A stretch of 64,000 nucleotides of DNA from Desulfobacterales bacterium (GCA_034003325.1 JAVEYW010000006.1:130362-194361); one strand, 5' to 3'. Counted from the stretch's first letter, positions 29,631 through 43,184 are shown. Program-made: numbers and translations. Notes: generated from the letters alone by a model not told the origin.

Positions 29631-30887
29631 GTGTTTGCGAAAATTCGCTTCCTTCGCGGTTCAAAGCCAATAGTTATTCGCCGAATAGGAACGAGCGCTA
29701 TCAATACCTATGGCCCTGAAATTGATTTTGTGCGGTTGTGCGCATGCGTTGAACCGGGAGAGGTCAGATGTGCGCAAATAAGGAGGGCTGTTTCCCCTTC
29801 CCTGCAATGGGATTTGGTTTACGACATGGCCATGCGGCAGAGAATTTTTCCGCTGATGTATGAAAATATCAATAAGATGTTAGCGGATAGCGCGCCGGCT
29901 TACATTTTTAATAAACTCAAAGTGGTTTATAGCGACAACGTTAAACATAGTATGTTTTTATCGTTTTTTCTTATAAAGTTGTTACGGTTATTTGAAGAAA
30001 ACAAAATTTGTGCGGTTCCTTTCAAAGGGCCTGTGCTTGCGGACAAGGTATATGGTGACATCGGACGGCGTTTTTTTGCGGATTTGGATATTCTGGTGAG
30101 CAGAAGCCATGCTAAACTGGCCTGGAACTTACTGCTACAAAACGGATTTGCTGCAGAATTGGCAATCAGCGATTCGTTGATGACACGGTACATTAAGGAT
30201 GAAGATAATGTGTCGTTTCGCAGCAATGCATCGGGCGTTATTGTTGAATTGCATTGGGAACTATCCGGGAATTATCTCTCAAAACCCCTGATCATGGAGA
30301 GCTTATCGGGCAGCCTGAGAATTTCTCTTTTTCACAAGAAAAAAATTCTCAGTCTGTCAGACGAATATTTATTGTTATATCTATGCATTCATGGCGCAAA
30401 GCACGAATGGGCGTTCTTGGAGCTGGTTTGCTGTGTCGCGGAATTGATTCGCAAAAGTGACCGGTTGAATTGGCGTCTTGTTGACGATCTGGCCGGAGAT
30501 TGGCGCTGCAGAAAGATTCTGGATTTGGGGGTTTATCTCTCTTGGGTGCTTTTGGGCAGTTCTATTCCCGAGATGATTCAAAATAGAATAAAAGCGAAGC
30601 ATGATCTTTCCCGTCTCGCTCAAACGGTTGTGTCGCGAATGTTTCAGAAAGAAGCGGGTGCGCAAGCCGGCGAAGGGAAGAGACGGTTTTCCCATTTTCA
30701 CCTTAGCGTTAGGGATTCTTGGACGGATCAATGGAGATATTTATTGCGACTCCTTTTTTCGCCGACCAAAAAGGAGTGGGAATCTTTTTCCTTGCCGGCG
30801 CATTTCTTGTTCCTTAGGTATCTGCTGCGGCCCTTTCGGCTAATCTGGCAGTGTTTGAAAATAAAATCAGGGGTTCAAAATGCTTAG
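29631..30887 (+). CDS. Nucleotidyltransferase family protein (NTP_transf_5-like)
   Basis: 418 residues. The core FKGPVLADKVYGDIGRRFFADLDILV (split here as FKGPVLADKVYG and RRFFADLDILV, about 120-150) has the Lys and the Asp-x-Asp of the superfamily. Proteins of this type occur next to HPr-kinase-like and PqqD-like genes and in some lasso-peptide clusters. Both partners lie 2-3 kb downstream here. GTG 29631 is the longest start; one some 30 codons later is possible. It overlaps the next gene by 8 bases. Confidence 0.75.
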   Translation: MFAKIRFLRGSKPIVIRRIGTSAINTYGPEIDFVRLCACVEPGEVRCAQIRRAVSPSLQWDLVYDMAMRQRIFPLMYENINKMLADSAPAYIFNKLKVVYSDNVKHSMFLSFFLIKLLRLFEENKICAVPFKGPVLADKVYGDIGRRFFADLDILVSRSHAKLAWNLLLQNGFAAELAISDSLMTRYIKDEDNVSFRSNASGVIVELHWELSGNYLSKPLIMESLSGSLRISLFHKKKILSLSDEYLLLYLCIHGAKHEWAFLELVCCVAELIRKSDRLNWRLVDDLAGDWRCRKILDLGVYLSWVLLGSSIPEMIQNRIKAKHDLSRLAQTVVSRMFQKEAGAQAGEGKRRFSHFHLSVRDSWTDQWRYLLRLLFSPTKKEWESFSLPAHFLFLRYLLRPFRLIWQCLKIKSGVQNA

Positions 30888-32322
30888 AGGACGTGGCGAA
30901 TTGACAACACGGGTACAGAAAACACTGGATTTGGTGATTACTGCCCTTTCGTTTATCGCGGCCTATCATATTAAGAATTTTTTCCTTCCCACGTCGCTTC
31001 GGGGCCTTTCAAGTAATCCCAATTATTATATCGTGCTGCTGCTGATCATCATTGTTTGGTACATTTCTTTTGCCTGGATGGGCATGTATATTTCCTATCG
31101 CGAATCACAGTTTTGGCAATTTTTCGTCAGAATCACAAAGTCCGTCTTATTAGGTGTGGTGATACTGTCGATATCGCTCTATGTGTTTCATATTCAAGGT
31201 ATCAGCCGTATGTTGGTCGGAATTTTTATTTTTCTGAACATTTTACTTCTGACGGCATCAAAATATATTATTTACATCGGTTTGAAACGGTTGAGAGCCC
31301 GCGGAATCAACACGAGAAATGTGCTGATTATCGGCAGCCGGGAACGCGCTGTCGATGCGGTTAAAAGCATCGAGAATAACCGGGGGTCGGGCTACAAGGT
31401 GCTCGGGTGTTTTGACCTGGATGAAGCCACAATTGGCAAACCGGTTGTTAATGGACATCAGGTAATCGGCTGCATGGCGGGGCTTGAGGCCTATTTGAAA
31501 GATAATGTCGTTGATGAATTGCTGTTTGCGATGCCGTTAAAGCTGATTGAAAATGCAGCCGAATATCTTTCGATGGCTGAGAGCATGGGGGTAAAGGTCA
31601 GAATTATTCCCGATTGGCAGCTCGATAAGTTGATGTATCGGCCTGGAATCGCCAATATCAGGATCGAGGATTTTCTGGGGCTTCATACCTTGGCGCTTCA
31701 GACCACCCCGCCCAATGAGGCCAAACTCTTCATCAAGGCAGTTGGGGATCATGTGGTCGCCTTAATTATGATGGTGCTTTGCCTGCCTCTTTTTGTCCTT
31801 GTTGGATTAGCGATTAAACTGGTGTCTAAGGGGCCCGTATTTTTCAGACAGGAGAGATTGGGCCTTAACGGTCGAAAATTCATATTGTATAAATTCAGAA
31901 CGATGGTGAATGATGCAGACGCGCTCAAACAGGAGCTGACGCTGATGAACGAGGCTGACGGCCCCGCGTTTAAAATAAAAGATGATCCGCGAATTATTCC
32001 CTGGGTCGGTACCTTCTTACGTAAAACGAGTCTTGATGAATTACCGCAACTGATCAATGTGATAAAAGGCGAAATGAGCCTTGTGGGACCCAGGCCGCCT
32101 ATCCCTTCAGAAGTAACTGAATATTCTATATGGCAAAGACGGCGACTTTCCATGAAGCCCGGTTTGACATGCTATTGGCAAATCGCCCCTCAGCGGAATG
32201 ATATGCGTTTCGATGAGTGGATGCGGCTTGATCTGCAATATATCGATACTTGGTCGCTTTTTAACGATCTTAGACTCTTGTTGCTTACAGTAAGGGTCGT
32301 GCTCATGGGCTCAGGCAGGTAG
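30880..32322 (+). CDS. Undecaprenyl-phosphate sugar phosphotransferase (WcaJ/WbaP-type)
   Basis: 480 residues. Four N-terminal membrane helices are followed by a CoA-binding-like domain (VLIIGSRERAVDAV, about 148-161) and a fifth hydrophobic segment. The catalytic bacterial sugar transferase domain (from about 285) has KFRTMVNDAD, RKTSLDELPQL and SLVGPRPP. It starts polysaccharide synthesis by moving a hexose-1-phosphate to undecaprenyl phosphate. It is translationally coupled to the nucleotidyltransferase gene. Confidence 0.93.
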   Translation: MLRGRGELTTRVQKTLDLVITALSFIAAYHIKNFFLPTSLRGLSSNPNYYIVLLLIIIVWYISFAWMGMYISYRESQFWQFFVRITKSVLLGVVILSISLYVFHIQGISRMLVGIFIFLNILLLTASKYIIYIGLKRLRARGINTRNVLIIGSRERAVDAVKSIENNRGSGYKVLGCFDLDEATIGKPVVNGHQVIGCMAGLEAYLKDNVVDELLFAMPLKLIENAAEYLSMAESMGVKVRIIPDWQLDKLMYRPGIANIRIEDFLGLHTLALQTTPPNEAKLFIKAVGDHVVALIMMVLCLPLFVLVGLAIKLVSKGPVFFRQERLGLNGRKFILYKFRTMVNDADALKQELTLMNEADGPAFKIKDDPRIIPWVGTFLRKTSLDELPQLINVIKGEMSLVGPRPPIPSEVTEYSIWQRRRLSMKPGLTCYWQIAPQRNDMRFDEWMRLDLQYIDTWSLFNDLRLLLLTVRVVLMGSGR

Positions 32323-32420: not shown

Positions 32421-32530
32421 ACTCGTTATCAGGAACATACACGAAAAAGCGTGTATCATTGGAGAGGGTTGTTAGCTGCCAAGCATCCCAGCATCCCAGC
32501 CGCCCACCTTCCGGCTTTGCCGGGTTAGGC
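32421..32530 (+). repeat. Two-hairpin dispersed repeat, copy 3 (type A)
   Basis: A perfect 5' stem ATACACG (32437-32443)/CGTGTAT (32450-32456), then GGAGAGGGTTGTTAGCTGCC, two CATCCCAG units, and CCGGC-TTT-GCCGG. Both sides of the 5' stem changed relative to other copies, which keeps the pairing. Confidence 0.85.
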
Positions 32531-32681
32531 TGGAAGGCAACCGTGATAGGGGCTTTTCAAAAACGTTATTCGAATTACAAAGTTGGCGCTGAATTACAAT
32601 TTGGGTAGTTGGTATTTTTTGCTGAGCACTCTTGTTAGCGCTTATTTTATTCGGGGTTAAAACTCTTTTGATAGGGAATTC

Positions 32682-33602
32682 ATGTATTCAAAATTTTATC
32701 AGGTCGCAGGTATAACCATAGAGGTTAGGTCCGAGCGGCACATTACCGAGAATACCTTTCATCCCAAGTTCAGGCAGTTTGAAGTGGAGGGGCCCGGCGC
32801 GGATAATGTTTTGATCTCTCATTATTTTCACTCACCGAATACCCCAAGAGCAGATGAGATGGCGAATCAAGAAATTTATCATAAAGATAGATGGCGGATT
32901 TTTAAAACTGATGAATACTGGATATACCAATTTAGATCTCTTTTCCCGGCGGATCCCGGCCATTCGGCGGTTGGGGTGTTTAGCGCTGACCACAAGGTCG
33001 TTGATATTTATGCGGTTGATATAGGGGAAGAAAAATATAGAAATGGCCTTTTCAATGCGTTGACGTTGTTTAATAGTGACCAAGTTCTTTTTTCAAAATT
33101 GCTTTGTGATAGAAACGGCTTGATGATTCATTCCAACGGGTTTGATATGAACGGCAAGGGGATTTTGCTCACGGGGCCATCCGGGGTTGGAAAAAGTACC
33201 CTTTCCAGAATGTTGAAGCGGCATGGGTTTAGAATTCTTTGCGACGACAGGATGTTTGTAACGGCAAGGGGGACTGATTTTTGGATACATGGCAACTGGT
33301 GCCATGGCACGGTCCCGGATACTTCTGCCGGCTCCGTGCCGTTGAAAGCGGTCCTTTTTCTGGAACAGTTTGCGGGGAATCATATTGAAGATCTAATAGA
33401 AAGAAGAGGGGTATCCCACCAGCTTTTACGGGCGCTGGTGCACCCTTTTTTAACGCCGGACGGGTGGGAAAAAACCTTTGATATTCTTGCGGCGCTGGTG
33501 CGGCAGGTTAAGTGCTTCCGGGTGCAATTTGATTTGTCAGGTGATATATGCGGAAAGATAAAAAACAAGTTAACCACAGATTGCGCGAATAGCCGAGAAT
33601 GA
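32682..33602 (+). CDS. HPr kinase-like ATPase (HprK-related, peptide-system type)
   Basis: 306 residues. The N-terminal 140 are variable. The C-terminal domain has P-loop GPSGVGKS at 165-172, the HprK-like LCDD at 187-190 and HGNWCHGT at 203-210, which corresponds to the G-x-P-W-H-G element of HprK-related kinases. There is no HPr protein or PTS gene here. The neighbours are PqqD-like, peptidase, peptide and ABC exporter genes, so a kinase acting on a ribosomal peptide, as shown for some lasso-peptide kinases, is a better guess than sugar control. AGGGA precedes ATG 32682. Confidence 0.8.
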   Translation: MYSKFYQVAGITIEVRSERHITENTFHPKFRQFEVEGPGADNVLISHYFHSPNTPRADEMANQEIYHKDRWRIFKTDEYWIYQFRSLFPADPGHSAVGVFSADHKVVDIYAVDIGEEKYRNGLFNALTLFNSDQVLFSKLLCDRNGLMIHSNGFDMNGKGILLTGPSGVGKSTLSRMLKRHGFRILCDDRMFVTARGTDFWIHGNWCHGTVPDTSAGSVPLKAVLFLEQFAGNHIEDLIERRGVSHQLLRALVHPFLTPDGWEKTFDILAALVRQVKCFRVQFDLSGDICGKIKNKLTTDCANSRE

Positions 33603-33661
33603 ACAACTATGATGAATTCGCGCAATTTCGCATCAATCGCGGTTAAGGAAAAGGAAATTGA

Positions 33662-33958
33662 ATGTCAGTTGATTTAAATAATTGTTACCGGGTTTCAGCC
33701 GATGTGGTCGCCAGGGAAATAGAGGGAGAGTTGGTAATTGTTCCACTAAAATCTGGTTTGGGTGATCTTGATGCCGAGATGTACGCGTTGAGCGCGACGG
33801 GCATTGCGGTTTGGGAAAAATTGGATGGGCATACCACTCTATTTGAAGTGATAAAGGTGCTTTCGGCCGAGTACAATGCCGCTTTTGTCGAAATTGAAGT
33901 GGATGTAGTGGCCCTAGTGGGCGAACTTATCGGAAAAGGGCTGGTCCTTGAACCCTAA
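33662..33958 (+). CDS. PqqD-like peptide-binding protein (RiPP recognition element)
   Basis: 98 residues with the PqqD winged-helix pattern: a beta start (VVAREIEGELVIVPL), EMYALSATGIAVWEKLDG with the typical L-N/S-x-T/S-G-x-x-I/V-W, then TTLFEVIKVLSAEY and VVALVGELIGKGLV. Such proteins bind leader peptides of ribosomal peptide precursors. It lies between the HPr-kinase-like and peptidase genes, and its stop codon touches repeat copy 4. A GGAAAAGGAAATTGA leader precedes ATG 33662. Confidence 0.88.
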   Translation: MSVDLNNCYRVSADVVAREIEGELVIVPLKSGLGDLDAEMYALSATGIAVWEKLDGHTTLFEVIKVLSAEYNAAFVEIEVDVVALVGELIGKGLVLEP

Positions 33959-34050
33959 TCCGGCAAAGCCGGATGCTGGGATGCTGGGATGCATAAAAGT
34001 CATTTTCACCTTCGGCGAACATACACGTAAAGGCGTGCATGTTTCTGATA
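33953..34050 (-). repeat. Two-hairpin dispersed repeat, copy 4 (type B, reverse)
   Basis: Read on the minus strand: ACATGCACG-cctttacg-TGTATGT stem, CGCCGAAGGTGAAAATG, two to three CATCCCAG units, and ATCCGGC-TTT-GCCGGAT. It is nearly identical in plan to copy 7. It begins at the last codons of the PqqD-like gene. Confidence 0.85.
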
Positions 34051-34070
34051 ACGGGCCTAATTTCCAGGAA

Positions 34071-34541
34071 ATGCAGCCAGTAATTAAACGCTTGGACAGC
34101 CTTGGCTTATCTGGCAAGGCGTTGGGGATCTTGGTCAAGGCTTTTACTGAACAGGGACGAATGATCCGGTTTACGGCCAGAGGGGACAGCATGTTTCCGT
34201 TTATTAAAGACGGAGATGTGATCCGGGTGACTCCCTATGGCGATGTGTTACCCGCGCCCGGTGATATGGCGGCCTTTATAGACTCGGTTACCGAAAAATT
34301 AGTGGTGCACAGAATTATGCGCCTTTCTCAAGATCGGTTCGTGACAAAGGGTGACCATTGTTTTCATGAGGATAACCCGCAACCTTATGATAATATCCTT
34401 GGTTTTATTTCTGAGATTAATTCCCGAAACGGAATATGTTATGGTATTAATTATATAAAAATTAAGAGATATGTTACATTTCTTTCCAGGTTCAACCTTA
34501 CCGCCATATTCGGCAAGCTATTGAAAAGAAAATACTATTGA
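34071..34541 (+). CDS. S26/S24-like serine peptidase (SipW/ER-type signal-peptidase fold), no membrane helix
   Basis: 156 residues if started at ATG 34071; the longer frame from 33948 runs through repeat copy 4 and the PqqD-like gene end and is unlikely. Catalytic-type motifs are GDSMFPFIKDGDVI (Ser40), VVHRIM (His80) and RFVTKGD (Lys93). The VHR arrangement is that of ER/SipW-type S26 enzymes. No transmembrane helix is visible, unlike usual signal peptidases, so it could process a cytoplasmic peptide. It lies between the PqqD-like gene and the 47-residue peptide. Confidence 0.75.
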   Translation: MQPVIKRLDSLGLSGKALGILVKAFTEQGRMIRFTARGDSMFPFIKDGDVIRVTPYGDVLPAPGDMAAFIDSVTEKLVVHRIMRLSQDRFVTKGDHCFHEDNPQPYDNILGFISEINSRNGICYGINYIKIKRYVTFLSRFNLTAIFGKLLKRKYY

Positions 34542-34726
34542 GCTGTGAGGGCGCGAAGCATATGTAATTTATTTCCTAATTCCTGTTGAATGACAAGAGG
34601 GGTTGGGGGTAATTAATGCGCCGGGTTGTCAGTGCGATTTGGGTTGATTTTATAAATTTCGTGTTTTATTAGGCAGATATGTTTTCTGATCAGAGAGGAT
34701 ACTTTCCGACTGGCAGAAAGGCCATT

Positions 34727-34742
34727 TGGCATAATTATTGCT
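34727..34742 (+). promoter_or_regulatory. Sigma-54 (RpoN) promoter upstream of the 47-residue peptide
   Basis: TGGCAT (34727-34732), five bases, TTGC (34738-34741), T: exact GG-N10-GC spacing. It ends 34 bases before the peptide ATG, which is right for transcription starting near 34752. The same TGGCAT-N5-TTGCT appears at 38019. Confidence 0.75.
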
Positions 34743-34775
34743 ATAATTTGTAGTGAAAAAATAGGGAGTCAACTA

Positions 34776-34919
34776 ATGGAAAACGAAAATCGCGACAAAA
34801 AATGGGAAAAACCGAAACTAACGTTAATAGCTGCGGCAGCGGTATCGGAAACGGTCCTTTCTTTTTCAGAGGAACCTCCCCCACCTCCAGGGTATCCAGG
34901 AGGGCCTCAACAACCTTAA
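34776..34919 (+). CDS. 47-residue putative RiPP precursor peptide with W-x-x-P-x-L leader and Pro/Gly-rich C-terminus
   Basis: ATG 34776 follows AGGGAG by seven bases; TAA is at 34917-34919. The N-terminal part is charged (MENENRDKKWEKPKLTLI). Trp10, Pro13 and Leu15 match the Y/W-x-x-P-x-L pattern by which lasso-type leaders bind PqqD-like proteins. A short Ala/Ser/Thr region (AAAAVSETVLSFS) precedes an EEPPPPPGYPGGPQQP tail (32-47). The PqqD-like, HPr-kinase-like and soluble peptidase genes lie just upstream, and an ABC exporter lies downstream. It has its own sigma-54 promoter. No known core-peptide class was recognised: there are no Cys residues and no lasso-type Gly/Asp ring pattern. Confidence 0.8.
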   Translation: MENENRDKKWEKPKLTLIAAAAVSETVLSFSEEPPPPPGYPGGPQQP

Positions 34920-34945
34920 ACTCTATCGGCATATAGGTTAGGGCC

Positions 34946-35034
34946 TCTATAAGAAACATGCACGAAAGCGCCATCATTGGAGAAAGTTGTTGGTTGCAAA
35001 GGAGTCCAGCCGCTCAGCTTCCGGCTTTTCCGTA
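34946..35034 (+). repeat. Two-hairpin dispersed repeat, copy 5 (type A)
   Basis: AAACATGCACGAAAGCG, CATCATTGGAGAAAGTTGTTGG, GCTCAGCTTCCGGCTTTTCCG: recognisable but eroded in both stems. It lies between the peptide and the PEP-CTERM gene. Confidence 0.75.
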
Positions 35035-35105
35035 TGAGGATTTTTTTAAAAATTCATGGCCATTTTGGCCGGGACAACCCCGGAGAAAATCAAAAAGGGG
35101 GAGAA

Positions 35106-35879
35106 ATGGTAAGATTCGTTATTGGTTGGGCCATATTGCTATCAATGTCATTCGTCTCGGGTGTATCAGCGGAATACATTGATGTCACACCCGATAACAA
35201 GCCGAAGTCTTATGGGTATTTAGCTGTCTACTTTCAATTTGATTTCAATTATGATGGAGTTTTTTCTACGGACACATATACCGGTAGTGATTGGCGATCA
35301 GAATCAAGTGACAGTCGCTATGCTGGTTCTTTTTACCTGTCCTTTTACAAGGATTCGAGCGAAAATCAACCGCTCTTTGGAACATATGGTTTTTGTGTCG
35401 ACTTGACTGAATTGGTTGGTGACGGCGATGCCTCCATTTTGAATGTCGGCACATTAAATAATGGAAATAAAGCAGCTTGGCTGCTTTATACTTATTGGCG
35501 CGCCGATAATACCGCGGCCGAGAATGCGGCGTTACAACTTGCTATTTGGGAAACGATTTATGACATGGCGGCTCCTGATGGGTACAATGGGGTGACCGAT
35601 TATGATCGATTCGTCCTCAACACTTCATTTACAAATTCAGATATTGTAAATGCATACGCGCAATACATTACCGGCTTAGCCTCATCGGATTTAAACGCAT
35701 TTAATGGTGACCAATTTCAAATAGCCAGCTTTGATGGAAAGCAAGATTTAATTTTTCAAGTAGTGCCCGAACCCGCAACTATGGCGCTGATGGGATTTGG
35801 ACTTATTGGCCTTGGGGCATATATTGCTAATAAAAAGTCAAACAAGAAAGTGCAAGATCGATCTTTATTGGTTGGCTAG
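35106..35879 (+). CDS. PEP-CTERM sorting-domain secreted protein
   Basis: 257 residues from ATG 35106 after AAAGGGGGAGAA. The frame is open further upstream, but that part is repeat copy 5. It has an N-terminal signal peptide (about 1-22, cut near VSA). A secreted domain rich in Tyr/Asp/Ser follows (YGFCVDLTEL, ALQLAIWETIYD as in thioester/PEP-CTERM surface proteins). The sorting signal VPEPATMALMGFGLIGLG ends in a basic KKSNKK stretch, then 11 extra residues. It would be cleaved by an exosortase; none is in this window. Confidence 0.85.
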   Translation: MVRFVIGWAILLSMSFVSGVSAEYIDVTPDNKPKSYGYLAVYFQFDFNYDGVFSTDTYTGSDWRSESSDSRYAGSFYLSFYKDSSENQPLFGTYGFCVDLTELVGDGDASILNVGTLNNGNKAAWLLYTYWRADNTAAENAALQLAIWETIYDMAAPDGYNGVTDYDRFVLNTSFTNSDIVNAYAQYITGLASSDLNAFNGDQFQIASFDGKQDLIFQVVPEPATMALMGFGLIGLGAYIANKKSNKKVQDRSLLVG

Positions 35880-36005
35880 TGATTTGTTATTATAGCCTTA
35901 AAGGTTGGGGGATATCATTTGCTGATGAGCCTGAATTTCGGTTATCGCCTTCCTGATGATTTATAGGGAATACATGAGGCTCACTATCGCTTTAATTAAC
36001 GCGTT

Positions 36006-37874
36006 GTGAGCCTTTCATATCATATAACCCATGTTATGCCACTGAATACCACCCCCCTATCGGTTAAACTCAAAAATGCCCTGCGTATAGACCGGGCCCT
36101 TAGATTTGTATGGCGGGCCAGTCCCGGATGGACGGTTGCTTCCGGTGCCTTGATCGTGATTCAAGGTGCTTTGCCCCTGTTGTCCCTTTATCTTGTCAAG
36201 TTGATTATTGACGCGGTTTCCGGCATGATTTTTCCGGTATCGAATCAAATGGCAGCGGCGAGTAACGGGTTTTCGGAGGTTGTTTCATACATTTGCCTCG
36301 CCGGCGGCGTGGGGTTAATAACGGCAGGCAGTCGATTTTTTGCCGATTATGTGAAAAAAGCACAAGCTCTGACGGTTACCGACTATATGTATTCCGTGCT
36401 TCATGAAAAGTCGGTGGCTGTGGATCTTGCTTATTATGAATCCCCCGGGCACCGCGATACGCTTCATCAGGCACAACGGGATGGACCGTACCGCCCTACC
36501 AGTATTGTCAACGGCTTAGTGCAAGCCGGTCAGAGCGCCGCCTCGCTTACTGCGATGTTATGGCTCCTTGTCATGTTTAACCCCTTGCTGCCTCTGGTGA
36601 TGCTGGCGGCGGTCATTCCCGGGGTGATGATGCGCCTGACCTATTCGGATCGCATTTATCATTGGCAGAAAAAGCGAACCGAGGACGAAAGAAGAAGCTA
36701 TTATTTCAATTGGCTTATGACGGATGGAGGGCATGCCAGAGAAATTAGACTCTTTGGCCTTGGCGACTATTTTATTGGGTGTTTTAATCGTATACGCAAC
36801 ACGTTAAGGCACGAAAAATTATGGTTCGAAAAGCGCCGGGCATTCGGGGATTTGGTCGCCCAGTCGAGTGTAACGATTGCTGTGTTTGGCTCCTTTATTT
36901 ACATCGCATCGGAAACTGTTCACGGGCGGATCTCTATTGGTGATATGGTGATGTATTTTCAAGCATTTCAACGAGGGCTTGCCTACATGGGCTCATTGTT
37001 GGACGCCGTGGCCGCGCTCTATGAAGATAATCTGTTTCTCTCCAATTTTTATGAATTCATGGATGTTCAACCGGATATTCAAGATCCTGAAAAACCGGAG
37101 CCTGTACCGAATGTGATAAAAACCGGATTTGCGATATCGAACATAACCTTTGGGTATCAAAATTGTGGAAAAAATGTAATAGAAAATTTGAATTTTGACA
37201 TAAAGCCGGGCGAGGTCGTCGCGCTAGTGGGGGAAAACGGGGCGGGAAAAAGCACAATGGTAAAGCTTCTTTGCAGACTCTATGACCCCGAGCTGGGTAG
37301 CATAAATTTGGACGGGGTGGATATTCGACATTTTCGCGCCGCAGAATATAGAAAAAGAATCTCGGTCGTATTTCAGGATTATATCCGGTATTACCTATCG
37401 GTTCGGGATAACATCCGGTTGGGAGATATTGATAAGGATAGCATGGATGAGAGCGTAAAAGCGGCGGCAGAAAAGGCGGGCATCGGTGACTATGTGGATC
37501 GACTGCATTCAGGGCTTGATACCACCCTGGGGCGATGGTTTAAAGGAGGGGAAGAGCTAAGTGTGGGGCAGTGGCAGATGGTTGCGATGGCAAGGGCTTT
37601 TTTTCGAGATGCAGACCTTGTCATTTTGGACGAGCCTGCCAGCGCCCTTGATATTAATGCCGAATCCCGGATTTTTGAAAAATTCAAGGAACTGGTTGAA
37701 AACAAAGCTGCCCTGATTATCAGCCATCGGTTTTCGACTGTAAAACTGGCGGATAAAATAATGCTTTTGCATGATGGCCGGATTGCGGAACGGGGAACCC
37801 ATGCGGAGCTGATGGCGTTGAATGGTCGATACGCCGCGCTTTACCGAAAGCAGGCTGAGCAATATCCGGTATGA
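36006..37874 (+). CDS. ABC transporter, fused permease and ATPase (exporter type)
   Basis: 622 residues. The N-terminal membrane domain has about six helices. The ATPase domain has Walker A GENGAGKS (about 409-416), signature LSVGQWQM (about 518) in place of LSGGQ, Walker B DLVILDEPASALD and the H-loop ISHRF. There is no N-terminal C39 peptidase domain. By position it may export the 47-residue peptide product, as LasD-type exporters do; a polysaccharide role is also possible. The start GTG 36006 or ATG 36036 is uncertain, with no strong ribosome site at either. Confidence 0.88.
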   Translation: MSLSYHITHVMPLNTTPLSVKLKNALRIDRALRFVWRASPGWTVASGALIVIQGALPLLSLYLVKLIIDAVSGMIFPVSNQMAAASNGFSEVVSYICLAGGVGLITAGSRFFADYVKKAQALTVTDYMYSVLHEKSVAVDLAYYESPGHRDTLHQAQRDGPYRPTSIVNGLVQAGQSAASLTAMLWLLVMFNPLLPLVMLAAVIPGVMMRLTYSDRIYHWQKKRTEDERRSYYFNWLMTDGGHAREIRLFGLGDYFIGCFNRIRNTLRHEKLWFEKRRAFGDLVAQSSVTIAVFGSFIYIASETVHGRISIGDMVMYFQAFQRGLAYMGSLLDAVAALYEDNLFLSNFYEFMDVQPDIQDPEKPEPVPNVIKTGFAISNITFGYQNCGKNVIENLNFDIKPGEVVALVGENGAGKSTMVKLLCRLYDPELGSINLDGVDIRHFRAAEYRKRISVVFQDYIRYYLSVRDNIRLGDIDKDSMDESVKAAAEKAGIGDYVDRLHSGLDTTLGRWFKGGEELSVGQWQMVAMARAFFRDADLVILDEPASALDINAESRIFEKFKELVENKAALIISHRFSTVKLADKIMLLHDGRIAERGTHAELMALNGRYAALYRKQAEQYPV

Positions 37875-38106: not shown

Positions 38107-38685
38107 ATGAAAAATTTAACATGGGGTATTGTGACGCTTACGATGGTTGCGATATTTTCTTCTATTCTTTCGGCAGAAGAGGCTATCGGTCCAATGGACT
38201 GGCGCGCTGTTTATAGAGCCGCTCTTGAAAAGGGCAAGGTGGCGCCGGTTAACCAGGCGAAGCCCGCCGGGTTGGCGTACGCTGCGCCCGAGGAAGTGGT
38301 GCTGGCTGAGGCTATTGCGATGGCACTGATGGCGGAAAAGGGCGAGCGCGTTTGTGAGTGTTTAAAAATAGCGATTGAGCTTGAGTATAATCCGTACCTG
38401 GTGCTGAAAAATATTTATGCGGTGGGCGGGGATCTGGAAATCGATCAGCTTTGCATGTGTGCAACAGAGGCGGGGGTGATGAAAGCGATCATCGCCAAGG
38501 CGGCTAAAGATGCGATGACGCCTCTAAATCAGCCCGTGTATGACATTGATGAAATCGCGCAGTCGCAATGCCTTAAGGGTGAAGACGGACTGGCCTATAC
38601 GCTGGCTGACAATGATCTTAAAGAGATTCCGATTGACGATAATGGCGATAAGAACTTTGCATCGAACTCAAGCCCCAGTCCCTGA
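38107..38685 (+). CDS. Secreted protein of unknown function with Cys motifs
   Basis: 192 residues; AGGGAAAA precedes the ATG. Signal peptide about 1-23. The middle is helical and Ala-rich with a C-E-C motif (VCECLKIAIEL) and a C-M-C motif (LCMCATEAG), then one more Cys (SQCLKGE). The tail is acidic and disordered, ending in SNSSPSP. I do not recognise the family. The position between the ABC exporter and the export outer-membrane genes, and the sigma-54 promoter shared with the peptide gene, suggest an envelope role in the same regulon. A terminator follows. Confidence 0.75.
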   Translation: MKNLTWGIVTLTMVAIFSSILSAEEAIGPMDWRAVYRAALEKGKVAPVNQAKPAGLAYAAPEEVVLAEAIAMALMAEKGERVCECLKIAIELEYNPYLVLKNIYAVGGDLEIDQLCMCATEAGVMKAIIAKAAKDAMTPLNQPVYDIDEIAQSQCLKGEDGLAYTLADNDLKEIPIDDNGDKNFASNSSPSP

Positions 38686-38832: not shown

Positions 38833-40191
38833 TTGATAAAGAGAATTCCGCTTTTGCTCTCCTGCCTGCTATGGTGTCTATTCGTGTGTCATGATGCGAT
38901 GGCTGCCGATGCGCCCGTGGGGCAGCAGAATCAGCCGGAGAGTTTCTCGCCCATCCCGGTAGGGCAAACTGAAGAAAAGATTATTCCCGGCCAGGGTCAA
39001 ATAGAGGCTGATGTTTTCGGGAAAAAAGGAGGGTATTACCACCCTTTCTTACTTTTTGAAGAACGCTGGACGGATAACCTATATTATACCAATTCAAAAG
39101 AGGAAGAAGATTTTATCACGACGATATCTCCCGGTATATGGCTTGCGCTTCCGGCGAACAGAGAAAAACTTTTGGAAATTGGCACCACCACAACAAGCCC
39201 CGGCGGACTTAAAGTGAGCCGCATGAAACCCGAAGCGGCTCGAAAATTCCAAAGCTATCTATTCTATGCGCCGGAATTTGTCTATTATGCGGATAATTCA
39301 CAACATGATGCCATTAACCATCAGGTCGAAGGCATGTTGCAATATAATTTAAATATGGGACTCTCTATTGACGTGGTGGATCAGTACCAAAGTAACCATG
39401 AGCCTAACGATAACGGCATATCTGAGCGAATTGATAAGTACAAAGACAATTTATTCGATTTGTTGCTGGTGTATGAAACGCCGGAGCGATTCAAGTTTAG
39501 GTTCGATTATTCAAATTACGATCTTAATTATGACGATGATGTGAATGAATACAGAAACAGGAACGACAACTCTTATGCGTTTTATGCCTTTTACAAAGTG
39601 AAGCCTAAAACTTCTGTTTTTGTTGAATATGAATTTGCAGATATTCGGTATGATGAATATACGGATTCAGACAGTTCGGAGCATAGATATTATGGCGGGC
39701 TTGATTGGAATATGACAGCCAAGACCAACGGGCGCATAAAACTTGGATATATAGAGAAAGATTTTGACAAGGGAAGCGCGTTTGATGATGACGACTTTTC
39801 GCTTGAAATACAAACACAGCATAATTTTACACCCAAGCGGGCTTTGAAATTGGTCGGTTTCCGGCGGTTTAATGAATCGTCCCTGATCGATTCCTCGGCC
39901 GTTTTGACAACCGGAATCACCGCCGCCTGGCTTCAGCGGTTCACTGAGAAGTGGTCCGGGACATTACAGTGTTCATTTACAATGGATGAATATGACGGGC
40001 TGATTACCTATAACCGGGTAACCGACGACCGAGTAGACGATATTTTCAGCATCGCGCCTGCGTTAAGATATAAAATGCGGGACTGGCTGGTAGTTGATTT
40101 CGCTTATATTTTTGCAATCAGGGATTCAAATTTCAGCCTGTTTGATTACACAACCAATACCATCTTTTTTAGAGTGGATATTTTCATTTGA
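38833..40191 (+). CDS. Outer-membrane beta-barrel protein of exopolysaccharide export (BBP2-like)
   Basis: 452 residues from TTG 38833, six bases after AAGGAG. Signal peptide about 1-24 (cut after AMA). The mature part has many alternating, aromatic-ended strands (FKFRFDYSNYDLNY, KTSVFVEYEFADIRY) and ends in a C-terminal aromatic/hydrophobic pattern (FFRVDIFI), as in barrel proteins. Such barrels are regular members of Wza/Wzc-type loci. It overlaps wza by four bases (ATGA). Confidence 0.75.
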   Translation: MIKRIPLLLSCLLWCLFVCHDAMAADAPVGQQNQPESFSPIPVGQTEEKIIPGQGQIEADVFGKKGGYYHPFLLFEERWTDNLYYTNSKEEEDFITTISPGIWLALPANREKLLEIGTTTTSPGGLKVSRMKPEAARKFQSYLFYAPEFVYYADNSQHDAINHQVEGMLQYNLNMGLSIDVVDQYQSNHEPNDNGISERIDKYKDNLFDLLLVYETPERFKFRFDYSNYDLNYDDDVNEYRNRNDNSYAFYAFYKVKPKTSVFVEYEFADIRYDEYTDSDSSEHRYYGGLDWNMTAKTNGRIKLGYIEKDFDKGSAFDDDDFSLEIQTQHNFTPKRALKLVGFRRFNESSLIDSSAVLTTGITAAWLQRFTEKWSGTLQCSFTMDEYDGLITYNRVTDDRVDDIFSIAPALRYKMRDWLVVDFAYIFAIRDSNFSLFDYTTNTIFFRVDIFI

Positions 40192-40982
40192 TGATTATGA
40201 AAAAAGCATGCCTTTTTGTTTTAATCCTAATGATGGGGTCGGCTTTTGCGATCGCCGCGGAATACACCGTGGGTGATGGCGATGTGCTTGATATTAATGT
40301 TTATGAAAACCAGGATCTTTCCACCACAGTCAGAGTGAGTGCCGACAACACGATTCGGGTGCCGCTGATTGGCGAGGTGAATGTGGAGAATCTTACGGTT
40401 TCTCAAGTTTCCGCCAAAATAGAGAAACTGCTGGCGGACGGGTATCTCGTAAATCCCCAGGTGGATGTTTTCATTAAAGAATACAGAAGTAAAAAAGCGA
40501 TTATTCTCGGGCAGATTAAAACGCCCGGGCTTTATGAGCTTCGGGGGAAAACAACACTTCTTGAATTTATATCCACTGCGGGGGGCTTGACGCCGGATGC
40601 GGGAAGCACCGCGACGATTAAGCGAAAAATAGCTGAAACCAATGAGGCCGATAAGATTGTCATCGACCTGGATCTTCTGGTTAAAAAGGGGGATACATCC
40701 TTAAATCTTCCGATTCGGGATGGCGACAGCGTCTATATTTCAAAAGCCGATATCTACTACGTTTCCGGAGAAGTTAATAAGCCCGGATCTTACAAAATAG
40801 AGGCGGATCTCACGATTATCAAAGGGATTACAACGGCCGGGGGTTTTTCGAAAATCGCAGCCAAAAACAAAGTGAGGGTAATCAGAATCGTTGCCGGGCA
40901 AAAGCAGGTTCTTGAAAATGTTAAAATGGATATGCCCGTTTTCCCAGATGATGTGATTATCGTTCCGGAGAGTTTTTTCTGA
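40188..40982 (+). CDS. Polysaccharide export protein (Wza-like)
   Basis: 264 residues. Signal peptide (about 1-23), a poly_export domain opening with YTVGDGDVLDINVYEN, and then two SLBB-type repeats (KAIILGQIKTPGLYEL and YYVSGEVNKPGSYKI). There is no lipobox cysteine, so it may not be a lipoprotein, unlike E. coli Wza. It forms the outer-membrane or periplasmic export channel together with the Wzc-like protein encoded four bases downstream. Confidence 0.93.
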   Translation: MMIMKKACLFVLILMMGSAFAIAAEYTVGDGDVLDINVYENQDLSTTVRVSADNTIRVPLIGEVNVENLTVSQVSAKIEKLLADGYLVNPQVDVFIKEYRSKKAIILGQIKTPGLYELRGKTTLLEFISTAGGLTPDAGSTATIKRKIAETNEADKIVIDLDLLVKKGDTSLNLPIRDGDSVYISKADIYYVSGEVNKPGSYKIEADLTIIKGITTAGGFSKIAAKNKVRVIRIVAGQKQVLENVKMDMPVFPDDVIIVPESFF

Positions 40983-40985
40983 CCT

Positions 40986-43184
40986 ATGGAAGAAAAAGAA
41001 ATACACCTCAGAGATTATCTGCGAATCGTAAATAGGCGGAAAACCACCGTTTTAACCTTCTTTATCATCACCTTTCTCGCGGTGGTCATTGCGACATTCA
41101 CCGCGACGCCCATCTACCAGGCAACGACAAAGGTCATGATGGAGCGGGATGTTTCAAGCCCTTTGGCCGGAAATTACAGTTACCTGCCTTACGATCCGGA
41201 ATTCCTGGAAACTCAGTATCAGGTCATCACCAGCATGGCCGTGGCTGAAAAGGTTGTCGGTATTCTCGATCCGGATAAGGTGTATCACGCTTTTTTCAAA
41301 GAAGGGCGTGGGGGAAAAAGCATTATCGCACTCATCGCGGGGTGGTTTAATACCCAGTATTCCGCATTTAAAGAAATCGTCGGCATTCAAAAGCTGTTAT
41401 CAACCGCTGAGGCGGATTTGGATCAGGAGACGGATGCCCCGTTGAGCAAAACCGAAGAGATTGCCCGATCCGTTCAAGCCGGTATCAGCGTGTCTCCGGT
41501 CGCCAATTCGAGAGTTGTTGAAATTAGTTACATGTCTGAAAATCCGGCGCTTGCCGTGAAAGTAGCCAATTCCGTCGCCCAGGCGTATATCAATAATCTG
41601 TTGGATATGCGGATGGAGGTTTCAAATTACAGCATCAAGTGGATGACCAAAAAGGCGGAAACGCAGCGGGAGAAACTGGAGAAATCTGAAAAGGTTCTTC
41701 AGGCCTATCTGAGAAGCCAGGATATTGTTACTGTTGAAGATAAAATAGCGCTGATACCCGAGCGGCTTTCCGAGCTGAGCAGGCGATTGACGAACGCCGA
41801 GACCGAACAAAAAGAGTTAAAGGCGGTCTATGATCAGATATTAAGCACGGGTTCCGGCGCTCTCGAAGCCATTCCCGTCATTGCTGAAAATGAGGCGGTG
41901 GATGCCATCAACAAACAGATTTTGAAAGCGGAACAAAATATCTCCGACCTTTTAAAAAAATATGGTCGCAAACACCCCATCTTGATTTCGGCCATGGATG
42001 AGCTGAAGGGATTGAGAAGCAAAAAACATGCGGAGATGCAAAAGGCCGTTCAGACCATTAAAAACAGATACCAGCTGGCTAAATCCAACGTGGGGGATTT
42101 ACAGGCACTGCTTGAGCAGACCAAGTTTGAAGCCGCCAATTTGAATGAAAAATATATTCAACTGGGAATACTCAAAAGAGAGGTGGAGACCAATAGAAGC
42201 CTTTATGACGCGTTAATGAGGAAATTAAAGGAAAGAGATATCACGGAAGAAAATCAGACCGTGAATGTTTGGGTGATTGAAGAGGCGGCGTTGCCGAAAA
42301 TCCCCGCCAAACCGAACAAGAAAAGGAACATCCTGCTGGCAACTATACTGGGGCTTTTCGGCGGCGTTGGCCTGGCTTTTTTTCTTGAATATCTCGATAA
42401 TACCGTTAAAAGCCCGGAAGATATCGAAGAAAAATTCGATATTCCCGTCATCGGGGCCATATCCTTGTTTAAGGGGATGGACGAAACCATTGTCAATAGT
42501 ATTTTGGCGGAGTCCACGCCCATCGTTTCTGAAGGCTTCAAGAGCCTTAGAACGTCTATTTTTCTCTCTTCCGCAGACAAACCACCCGGCTCATTGGTCG
42601 TTACCAGCATGTCGCCTGGCGAGGGTAAATCATCCATATGCGCCTGTCTGGCTGCGACGATTGCAAGGGCCGGGAAAAAGACCCTTTTAATTGATGCAGA
42701 CATGCGGCGGCCGGTGCAGCACCAAAATTTCAAGCTGAATAATACTACGGGTCTTAGCTCTTTTCTGGCGGGTATTGAGACCAAAAATATTATTGAAAAC
42801 GGTCCGGTTGAAAATTTGCATGTAATAACGGCAGGACCCGTGCCGCCCAACCCATCGGAGCTCTTGAGCTCTGATAGGATGGGGAAATTAATCGCAAAAC
42901 TTTCTGATGTCTATGACATGATTCTTGTTGACTCGCCCCCGGCATTAAATGTCAGTGATCCACTTATCATCAGTAAAAATGTTCAGGGCGTGGTGATTGT
43001 ATCCTGGGCCGGATCAACCACCTATGAAATGATAAGCAAGGGCTTAAAACTCTTCAAGGAAATATCCGTTCCCTTAATTGGTATGATCCTAAACCGATTT
43101 GATGCCAAAAAAAGCGGATATTATTATGGGTATGGCGATTACTATTACTCCTCTTCTTCCAAACCCAAAGATGACGAAGAATAG
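40986..43184 (+). CDS. Wzc-like polysaccharide co-polymerase with tyrosine autokinase
   Basis: 732 residues. A Wzz-type domain with membrane helices near 20-40 and 445-465 frames a long coiled-coil periplasmic part. The BY-kinase domain has Walker A SPGEGKSS (about 544-551), a Walker A' LIDADMRRP and Walker B DMILVDSPPA. The C-terminus is Tyr-rich (YYYGYGDYYYSSSS), the usual autophosphorylation cluster. It controls chain length and export. The next gene starts inside its last 14 bases. Confidence 0.93.
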   Translation: MEEKEIHLRDYLRIVNRRKTTVLTFFIITFLAVVIATFTATPIYQATTKVMMERDVSSPLAGNYSYLPYDPEFLETQYQVITSMAVAEKVVGILDPDKVYHAFFKEGRGGKSIIALIAGWFNTQYSAFKEIVGIQKLLSTAEADLDQETDAPLSKTEEIARSVQAGISVSPVANSRVVEISYMSENPALAVKVANSVAQAYINNLLDMRMEVSNYSIKWMTKKAETQREKLEKSEKVLQAYLRSQDIVTVEDKIALIPERLSELSRRLTNAETEQKELKAVYDQILSTGSGALEAIPVIAENEAVDAINKQILKAEQNISDLLKKYGRKHPILISAMDELKGLRSKKHAEMQKAVQTIKNRYQLAKSNVGDLQALLEQTKFEAANLNEKYIQLGILKREVETNRSLYDALMRKLKERDITEENQTVNVWVIEEAALPKIPAKPNKKRNILLATILGLFGGVGLAFFLEYLDNTVKSPEDIEEKFDIPVIGAISLFKGMDETIVNSILAESTPIVSEGFKSLRTSIFLSSADKPPGSLVVTSMSPGEGKSSICACLAATIARAGKKTLLIDADMRRPVQHQNFKLNNTTGLSSFLAGIETKNIIENGPVENLHVITAGPVPPNPSELLSSDRMGKLIAKLSDVYDMILVDSPPALNVSDPLIISKNVQGVVIVSWAGSTTYEMISKGLKLFKEISVPLIGMILNRFDAKKSGYYYGYGDYYYSSSSKPKDDEE

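Follow-up and report, generated by a model that had tools for sequence, protein, structure and literature searches.

A predicted RiPP-type peptide pathway without radical SAM enzymes in an exopolysaccharide operon of a Desulfobacterales bacterium

What does the compact gene cluster inside an exopolysaccharide (EPS) locus of a Desulfobacterales bacterium make? The cluster lies in a 64,000-nucleotide stretch of DNA (GCA_034003325.1 JAVEYW010000006.1:130362-194361; hereafter the window) and encodes an HPr-kinase-like ATPase, a PqqD-like protein, an S24/S26-like peptidase, a 47-residue peptide, a PEP-CTERM protein, and an ABC exporter. An earlier note on this DNA had listed these genes as adjacent, with a nucleotidyltransferase gene about 2 kb upstream, and had proposed a peptide pathway other than that of lasso peptides, one that might phosphorylate, trim, and export a Pro-rich product linked to the envelope. 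The inventory stands: all the genes are present, intact, and on the plus strand, and the nucleotidyltransferase gene, which matches PF14907, lies 1.8 kb upstream of the kinase gene. The interpretation is partly supported. Judged from its sequence, the region is a small-peptide pathway within a slime-polysaccharide operon. It reads as a pathway of the ribosomally synthesized and post-translationally modified peptide (RiPP) type that has a kinase module like that of phosphorylated lasso peptides, is stripped of radical chemistry, and is tied to a thioester surface protein and to EPS genes. Its anatomy is well supported, and its chemistry is inferred.

The first question is whether the 47-residue open reading frame (ORF) encodes a precursor. 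It carries the W-x-x-P-x-L motif reported earlier (W10-E-K-P13-K-L15). A leader model trained on seven sister precursors, with the window ORF held out, was used to search 774 window ORFs. It retrieves the 47-residue ORF with an E-value of 9.5e-7, the next-best window ORF having an E-value of 1.5, and the score of 23.8 bits compares with a maximum of 12.0 bits across 20 shuffled sets, ruling out a chance ORF. A Shine–Dalgarno-like motif precedes the precursor gene in all eight loci of the window's clade (defined below) with readable sequence. In the precursor alignment, P13, L15, E25, V27, and L28 are nearly invariant, and both close pairs that allowed an estimate of dS give the leader a ratio of non-synonymous to synonymous substitution rates (dN/dS) of about 0.12, indicating purifying selection. 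The cores are very variable and of low complexity across the clade, and those of the sister loci are rich in Gly, Ser, Gln, and Lys. The Pro-richness ascribed to the peptide is therefore not conserved, and the idea that function resides in a conserved Pro-rich core is ruled out. The window thus combines a genetically encoded, conserved leader and variable core with a recognition element, the PqqD-family protein. In addition, the gene arrangement recurs in other, publicly available genomes, and a conserved small W-x-x-P-x-L ORF adjoins the same gene set in relatives, the very observation on which the earlier note had staked its reading. The ORF is almost certainly a genuine precursor and the gene set of the RiPP type.

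Related precursors belong to a widespread and apparently unnamed family with more than 100 members in bacteria and archaea. Its hosts include Thermodesulfobacteriota, Chlorobiota, Omnitrophota, WOR-1, WOR-3, Aminicenantes, Acidobacteriota, Chloroflexota, Actinomycetota, Planctomycetota, and methanogenic archaea, among others. The usual layout is a kinase (often fused to a radical S-adenosylmethionine (SAM) domain), a radical SAM enzyme, PqqD, S24, and a second radical SAM enzyme, often with a nucleotidyltransferase and an ABC exporter; the radical enzymes are radical SAM/SPASM proteins. The precursors follow the pattern K-W/Y-x-x-P-x-L-x-V-L-x-R-x-x-P-E-E-x-V-L-x-x-C-K, with further Cys residues after it. 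Core Cys is present in all 99 radical-SAM-associated precursors, and 96 of them end in Ser or Thr, an ending found in 15% of the small ORFs that this DNA contains. By analogy with PadeK-type lasso precursor kinases, which phosphorylate a C-terminal Ser (PMC9266682), the kinases of this parent family would phosphorylate the C-terminal Ser. At many loci in Chlorobiota, Omnitrophota, methanogens, and others (for example L031:8951-10942), the radical SAM and HPr-kinase-like domains reside in one protein, and at four loci (L028, L055, L075, and L082) four or more different precursors surround a single enzyme set. The window genome itself has a complete radical-SAM version in a second EPS locus on contig 7 (L016, G000:C7:187001-207000). 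This locus has the same genes for kinase, PqqD, S24, nucleotidyltransferase, and ABC exporter, but its precursor contains Cys and a radical SAM/SPASM gene is present. A search of the genome with the 47-residue peptide gave little information (second match, E-value 1.2), yet the position of that match led to the Cys-containing precursor.

The window has the HPr-kinase-like, PqqD, and S24/S26 proteins and the W/Y-x-x-P-x-L precursor of the parent family. It has no radical SAM/SPASM gene in the cluster, its precursor has neither core Cys nor a C-terminal Ser/Thr, and no window ORF of at least 60 residues matches a radical SAM protein. In a kinase tree (a quick search with SH-aLRT branch support and no bootstrap), the nine kinases without a neighboring radical SAM gene form one clade, with a support of 99, nested among the radical-SAM-associated kinases. 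Eight of the nine loci have a readable precursor (the ninth, L151, is on a 5-kb contig where no precursor was found); core Cys occurs in none of the eight and a C-terminal Ser in one. Among the nearer relatives the number of core Cys follows the number of radical SAM genes in a rough gradient: three with two genes, mostly two with one, and zero with none. Exceptions are L016 (four core Cys) and L150 (three, on a short contig), each with one radical SAM gene. Very probably, then, the window pathway arose within the radical-SAM peptide family when the radical SAM enzymes were lost. The earlier note had recognized a separate peptide pathway; its derivation from this family was not part of that proposal. 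An alternative is that a radical SAM enzyme or other maturase encoded elsewhere, or the paralogous cluster on contig 7, modifies the window precursor in trans, and the window genome and one other (G310) do have a complete radical-SAM cluster as well. However, five of the eight variant-bearing genomes contain no relative of the family's radical SAM enzyme at an E-value of 1e-15, and the core offers no Cys to modify, which makes modification in trans very unlikely.

If radical chemistry is gone, what does the kinase do? Its HPr_kinase_C match is slightly below the Pfam cut-off, and its structural model (predicted local distance difference test score (pLDDT) 94) has HPr kinase/phosphatase as the first structure matches. 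Residues H150, K171, D188, and D189, the His-Lys-Asp-Asp motif of lasso-type kinases, are kept in all 76 radical-SAM-associated and all nine radical-SAM-less homologues. The wider set H150-G165-G168-G170-K171-S172-D188-D189 is in register with the motif of the lasso kinase BsfK (H148-G163-G166-G168-K169-S170-D186-D187; PMC10368454), with the same spacing and two residues later, and the window kinase aligns without gaps to its detectable homologue in a lasso cluster at locus L153 of a related genome. BsfK, assisted by the PqqD-like protein B1, phosphorylates the internal Ser3 of a precursor that has no C-terminal Ser (PMC10368454). BsfK is therefore the best precedent for the window kinase, and by this analogy Ser31, which occupies the alignment position of the first Cys of the relatives, is the best candidate phosphosite. 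Clade-specific residues, such as P131N and S207C, have switched cleanly in all nine radical-SAM-less homologues while the His-Lys-Asp-Asp residues are conserved, indicating that the clade kinase is altered, not decayed. The same switches, together with the disappearance of the canonical C-terminal Ser from seven of the eight clade precursors, would also fit a kinase that no longer modifies the precursor and has been kept for the exporter, an EPS protein, PqqD, or another target, so that an unmodified peptide is bound, trimmed, and exported. This explanation is unlikely: the kinase lies beside PqqD and the precursor in all loci with its catalytic residues kept, and BsfK provides the precedent for a kinase of this kind acting on an internal Ser. 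On balance, the gene content and the conserved motif favor phosphorylation of the precursor, by a modest margin.

The peptidase was predicted earlier to be a soluble S26/S24-like protein, in agreement with its signal-peptidase fold and the absence of an N-terminal membrane helix. Its conserved start is the ATG at 34071, not the TTG at 33948. Its model (pLDDT 85) is nearest to signal peptidases, including human signal peptidase complex paralogues, although the match is weak (Foldseek E-value 2.5e-3). Ser40 is present in 69 of 78 homologues, His80 and Asp95 each in 77, and Asp101 in 76. Because this protein is soluble and a peptidase domain is missing from the ABC exporter, the S24/S26-like protein is the likeliest leader peptidase, and it probably removes the leader.

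The gene directly after the precursor makes the proposed envelope link specific. It encodes a secreted PEP-CTERM protein, and the earlier note had seen this envelope partner without mentioning its thioester domain. The PF08341 score in the window is 22.0 bits, at the Pfam cut-off, and Pfam detects the domain at or near the cut-off in four of seven clade loci; the thioester Cys and Gln (the latter in L-Q-[LI]-A-I-W) are invariant in all seven homologues. The thioester PEP-CTERM gene directly follows the precursor in all seven intact radical-SAM-less loci and occurs in no surveyed radical-SAM locus, where the PEP-CTERM neighbors have no thioester domain. The window genome has no second PF08341 match, and a model built from the seven proteins matches no other surveyed locus and returns these same seven loci as its top matches among 389 genomes of the class. 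From this genomic association, we judge the chances of a functional link between the peptide pathway and the thioester protein to be about even. Adhesin thioester domains react with Lys amines (PMC4450167). The idea that an exported, leader-processed phosphopeptide is a structural or signaling part of the EPS surface, with its N-terminal amine or one of its Lys residues covalently captured by the PEP-CTERM thioester, is improbable, and the peptide as the target of this thioester is speculation. If it were true, a RiPP-type peptide would be an envelope component rather than an antibiotic or cofactor.

Taken together, the PqqD-like protein would bind the leader and present the precursor to the kinase, which would phosphorylate an internal Ser/Thr, and the PF14907 nucleotidyltransferase may extend the phosphate. 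The S24/S26-like protease would cut near E-T-V-L, the ABC protein would export the core, which is short and probably disordered, to the cell surface or exopolysaccharide zone, and the exported core might act there together with the polysaccharide and the thioester PEP-CTERM protein. As far as leader-guided phosphorylation and export, we put the probability of this pathway at roughly 0.6. Several observations weigh against it. When the leader model is built from radical-SAM precursors only, the window ORF ranks first by a narrow difference, scoring 9.3 bits where 20 shuffles reach up to 9.1 bits. Radical SAM, Cys, and C-terminal Ser were lost in a single event, and the contrasts are therefore not independent. 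The C-terminal Ser of PadeK-type substrates is missing from the window precursor, which makes any choice of substrate residue a guess, and Ser31 is not conserved in the sister locus L152. Cys replaces the catalytic Ser in nine of the 78 peptidase homologues. Other genomes of the class have weaker-scoring thioester-domain PEP-CTERM proteins without the peptide cluster (L156-L163); these stand-alone proteins rule out that the thioester domain is exclusive to the peptide cluster. Finally, the thioester gene is absent from L026 and its ABC gene is only a fragment. Such partial loss of downstream genes, the variable, low-complexity cores, and repeat insertions at the cluster junctions would also fit a decaying remnant, a pathway on its way out after radical SAM loss with the small ORF as a relic. 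Decay is nevertheless highly improbable: the leader is under the constraint described above, the cluster genes are intact in several genomes, the clade residues of the kinase are fixed in nine of nine homologues, and a distinct neighbor gene is fixed in seven of seven loci.

How does the functioning pathway that we favor compare with known systems? It resembles phosphorylated lasso clusters (PadeK/ThcoK, PsmK/PsmN, and BsfK/BsfN) in its discrete PqqD-type B1, Y/W-x-x-P-x-L leader (here W-E-K-P-K-L), HPr-kinase-like kinase with an in-register motif, nucleotidyltransferase, and ABC exporter. It differs in having an S24/S26-like peptidase in place of cyclase and B2, and a precursor without a recognizable lasso core (Gly1 and a ring-closing Asp/Glu) and without a C-terminal Ser. 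The window PqqD scores 27.7 bits against lasso_PqqD_Bac, below the cut-off of 80. No window ORF of at least 60 residues matches the L153 lasso cyclase (asparagine-synthetase-like) or B2 at an E-value of 10, as the earlier note had observed, and a lasso peptide cluster is ruled out. With the catalytic residues of lasso kinases kept and a soluble signal-peptidase-like protein present, this absence fits the different peptide pathway proposed there. The L153 cluster (L153:4051-7766) is a genuine lasso cluster that adjoins a radical-SAM EPS peptide cluster in divergent orientation, with a cyclase (413 bits), B2 (87 bits), PqqD, kinase, and a PadeA-like precursor ending in Ser.

The SynChlorMet cassette (TIGR04248-TIGR04251) has an HPr-kinase-like ScmC, a PqqD-like ScmD, and two radical SAM/SPASM proteins and is the nearest named relative of the radical-SAM-bearing parent family. 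Membership is ruled out: radical SAM genes are absent from the window, and the ScmC, ScmD, ScmE, and ScmF cut-offs are all missed by far (window kinase, 38 bits against 125; window PqqD, 24 against 100; radical SAM proteins of the relatives, at most 91 against 400). The HprK-related kinase families A and B (TIGR04352 and TIGR04355) also consist of HPr-kinase-like ATPases, but membership is likewise ruled out, the scores being 40 and 33 bits where 200 is required for each. As in PEP-CTERM/exosortase EPS loci, a PEP-CTERM protein is encoded near EPS genes and an exosortase is present in the genome; unlike in those loci, the exosortase is on another contig, and the PEP-CTERM protein has a thioester domain and a leader-peptide partner. 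The secreted surface protein shares its Cys...Gln motif (PF08341) with SfbI-type thioester adhesins but belongs to a Gram-negative PEP-CTERM setting. We found no description of the gene set, of PF14907, or of a thioester domain with PEP-CTERM in the open-licence literature.

The features are listed in Table 1. An EPS sugar transferase gene lies between the nucleotidyltransferase and kinase genes, and the PF14907 gene is also directly upstream of the EPS sugar transferase gene in five sister loci (L025, L026, L027, L147, and L152). Each of the eight clade loci with a precursor encodes a homologue of the 192-residue protein downstream of its ABC gene. An interspersed repeat of about 105 bp has 41 matches in the genome and three copies in cluster gene junctions, one of which overlaps both the PqqD gene end and the more upstream of the two S24 start codons, the apparent one.

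Table 1 Features of the peptide cluster and its surroundings, in window coordinates.
Feature	Position	Strand	Evidence
PF14907 nucleotidyltransferase (lasso 'N'-like accessory)	29631-30887	+	166 bits, cut-off 31
EPS polyprenyl glycosylphosphotransferase (sugar transferase, context)	30880-32322	+	TIGR03025, 403 bits vs cut-off 296
~105-bp repeat copy	32433-32540
HPr-kinase-like ATPase, peptide kinase candidate	32682-33602	+	HPr_kinase_C E 1.8e-7; HPr kinase fold
PqqD-like putative leader-binding protein (RiPP recognition element)	33662-33958	+	PF05402, 52 bits vs cut-off 23
~105-bp repeat copy (inverted)	33946-34060
Soluble S24/S26-like peptidase, candidate leader peptidase, Ser40/His80	34071-34541	+	Conserved residues; signal-peptidase fold
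AGGGAG ribosome-binding site of precursor	34763-34768	+	Sequence
47-residue precursor peptide MENENRDKKWEKPKLTLIAAAAVSETVLSFSEEPPPPPGYPGGPQQP	34776-34919	+	Held-out leader model; equivalent position in sister loci
Leader, W-x-x-P-x-L ... E-T-V-L	34776-34859	+	Precursor alignment; 3' boundary inferred
Cys-free core	34860-34916	+	Precursor alignment
~105-bp repeat copy	34938-35040
Secreted thioester-domain PEP-CTERM protein	35106-35879	+	PF08341 and PF07589
Thioester Cys codon	35394-35396
Thioester Gln codon	35535-35537
PEP-CTERM motif	~35763-35816
ABC exporter, MsbA-like, without peptidase domain	36006-37874	+	ABC_tran 112 bits
Secreted-looking 192-residue protein	38107-38685	+	Homologues in clade; no Pfam/NCBIfam match
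EPS export genes: beta-barrel, Wza-like, Wzc-like (context)	38833-43184	+	PF10082, PF02563, PF02706/GNVR

These results bring to light a large precursor family in many bacterial phyla and in methanogenic archaea. Of its precursors, 46 were scanned, and none is covered by a Pfam or NCBIfam model. The near-invariant C-terminal Ser/Thr ties the parent family to HPr-like kinases, which is a testable prediction. The window's clade shed radical enzymes, Cys, and terminal Ser together and kept recognition, kinase, protease, and export, which helps to tell apart the components of a RiPP pathway that rely on one another from those that do not. This suggests that the kinase module common with lasso peptides works without cyclization, and it points to a role of the peptide in exopolysaccharide or surface biology.

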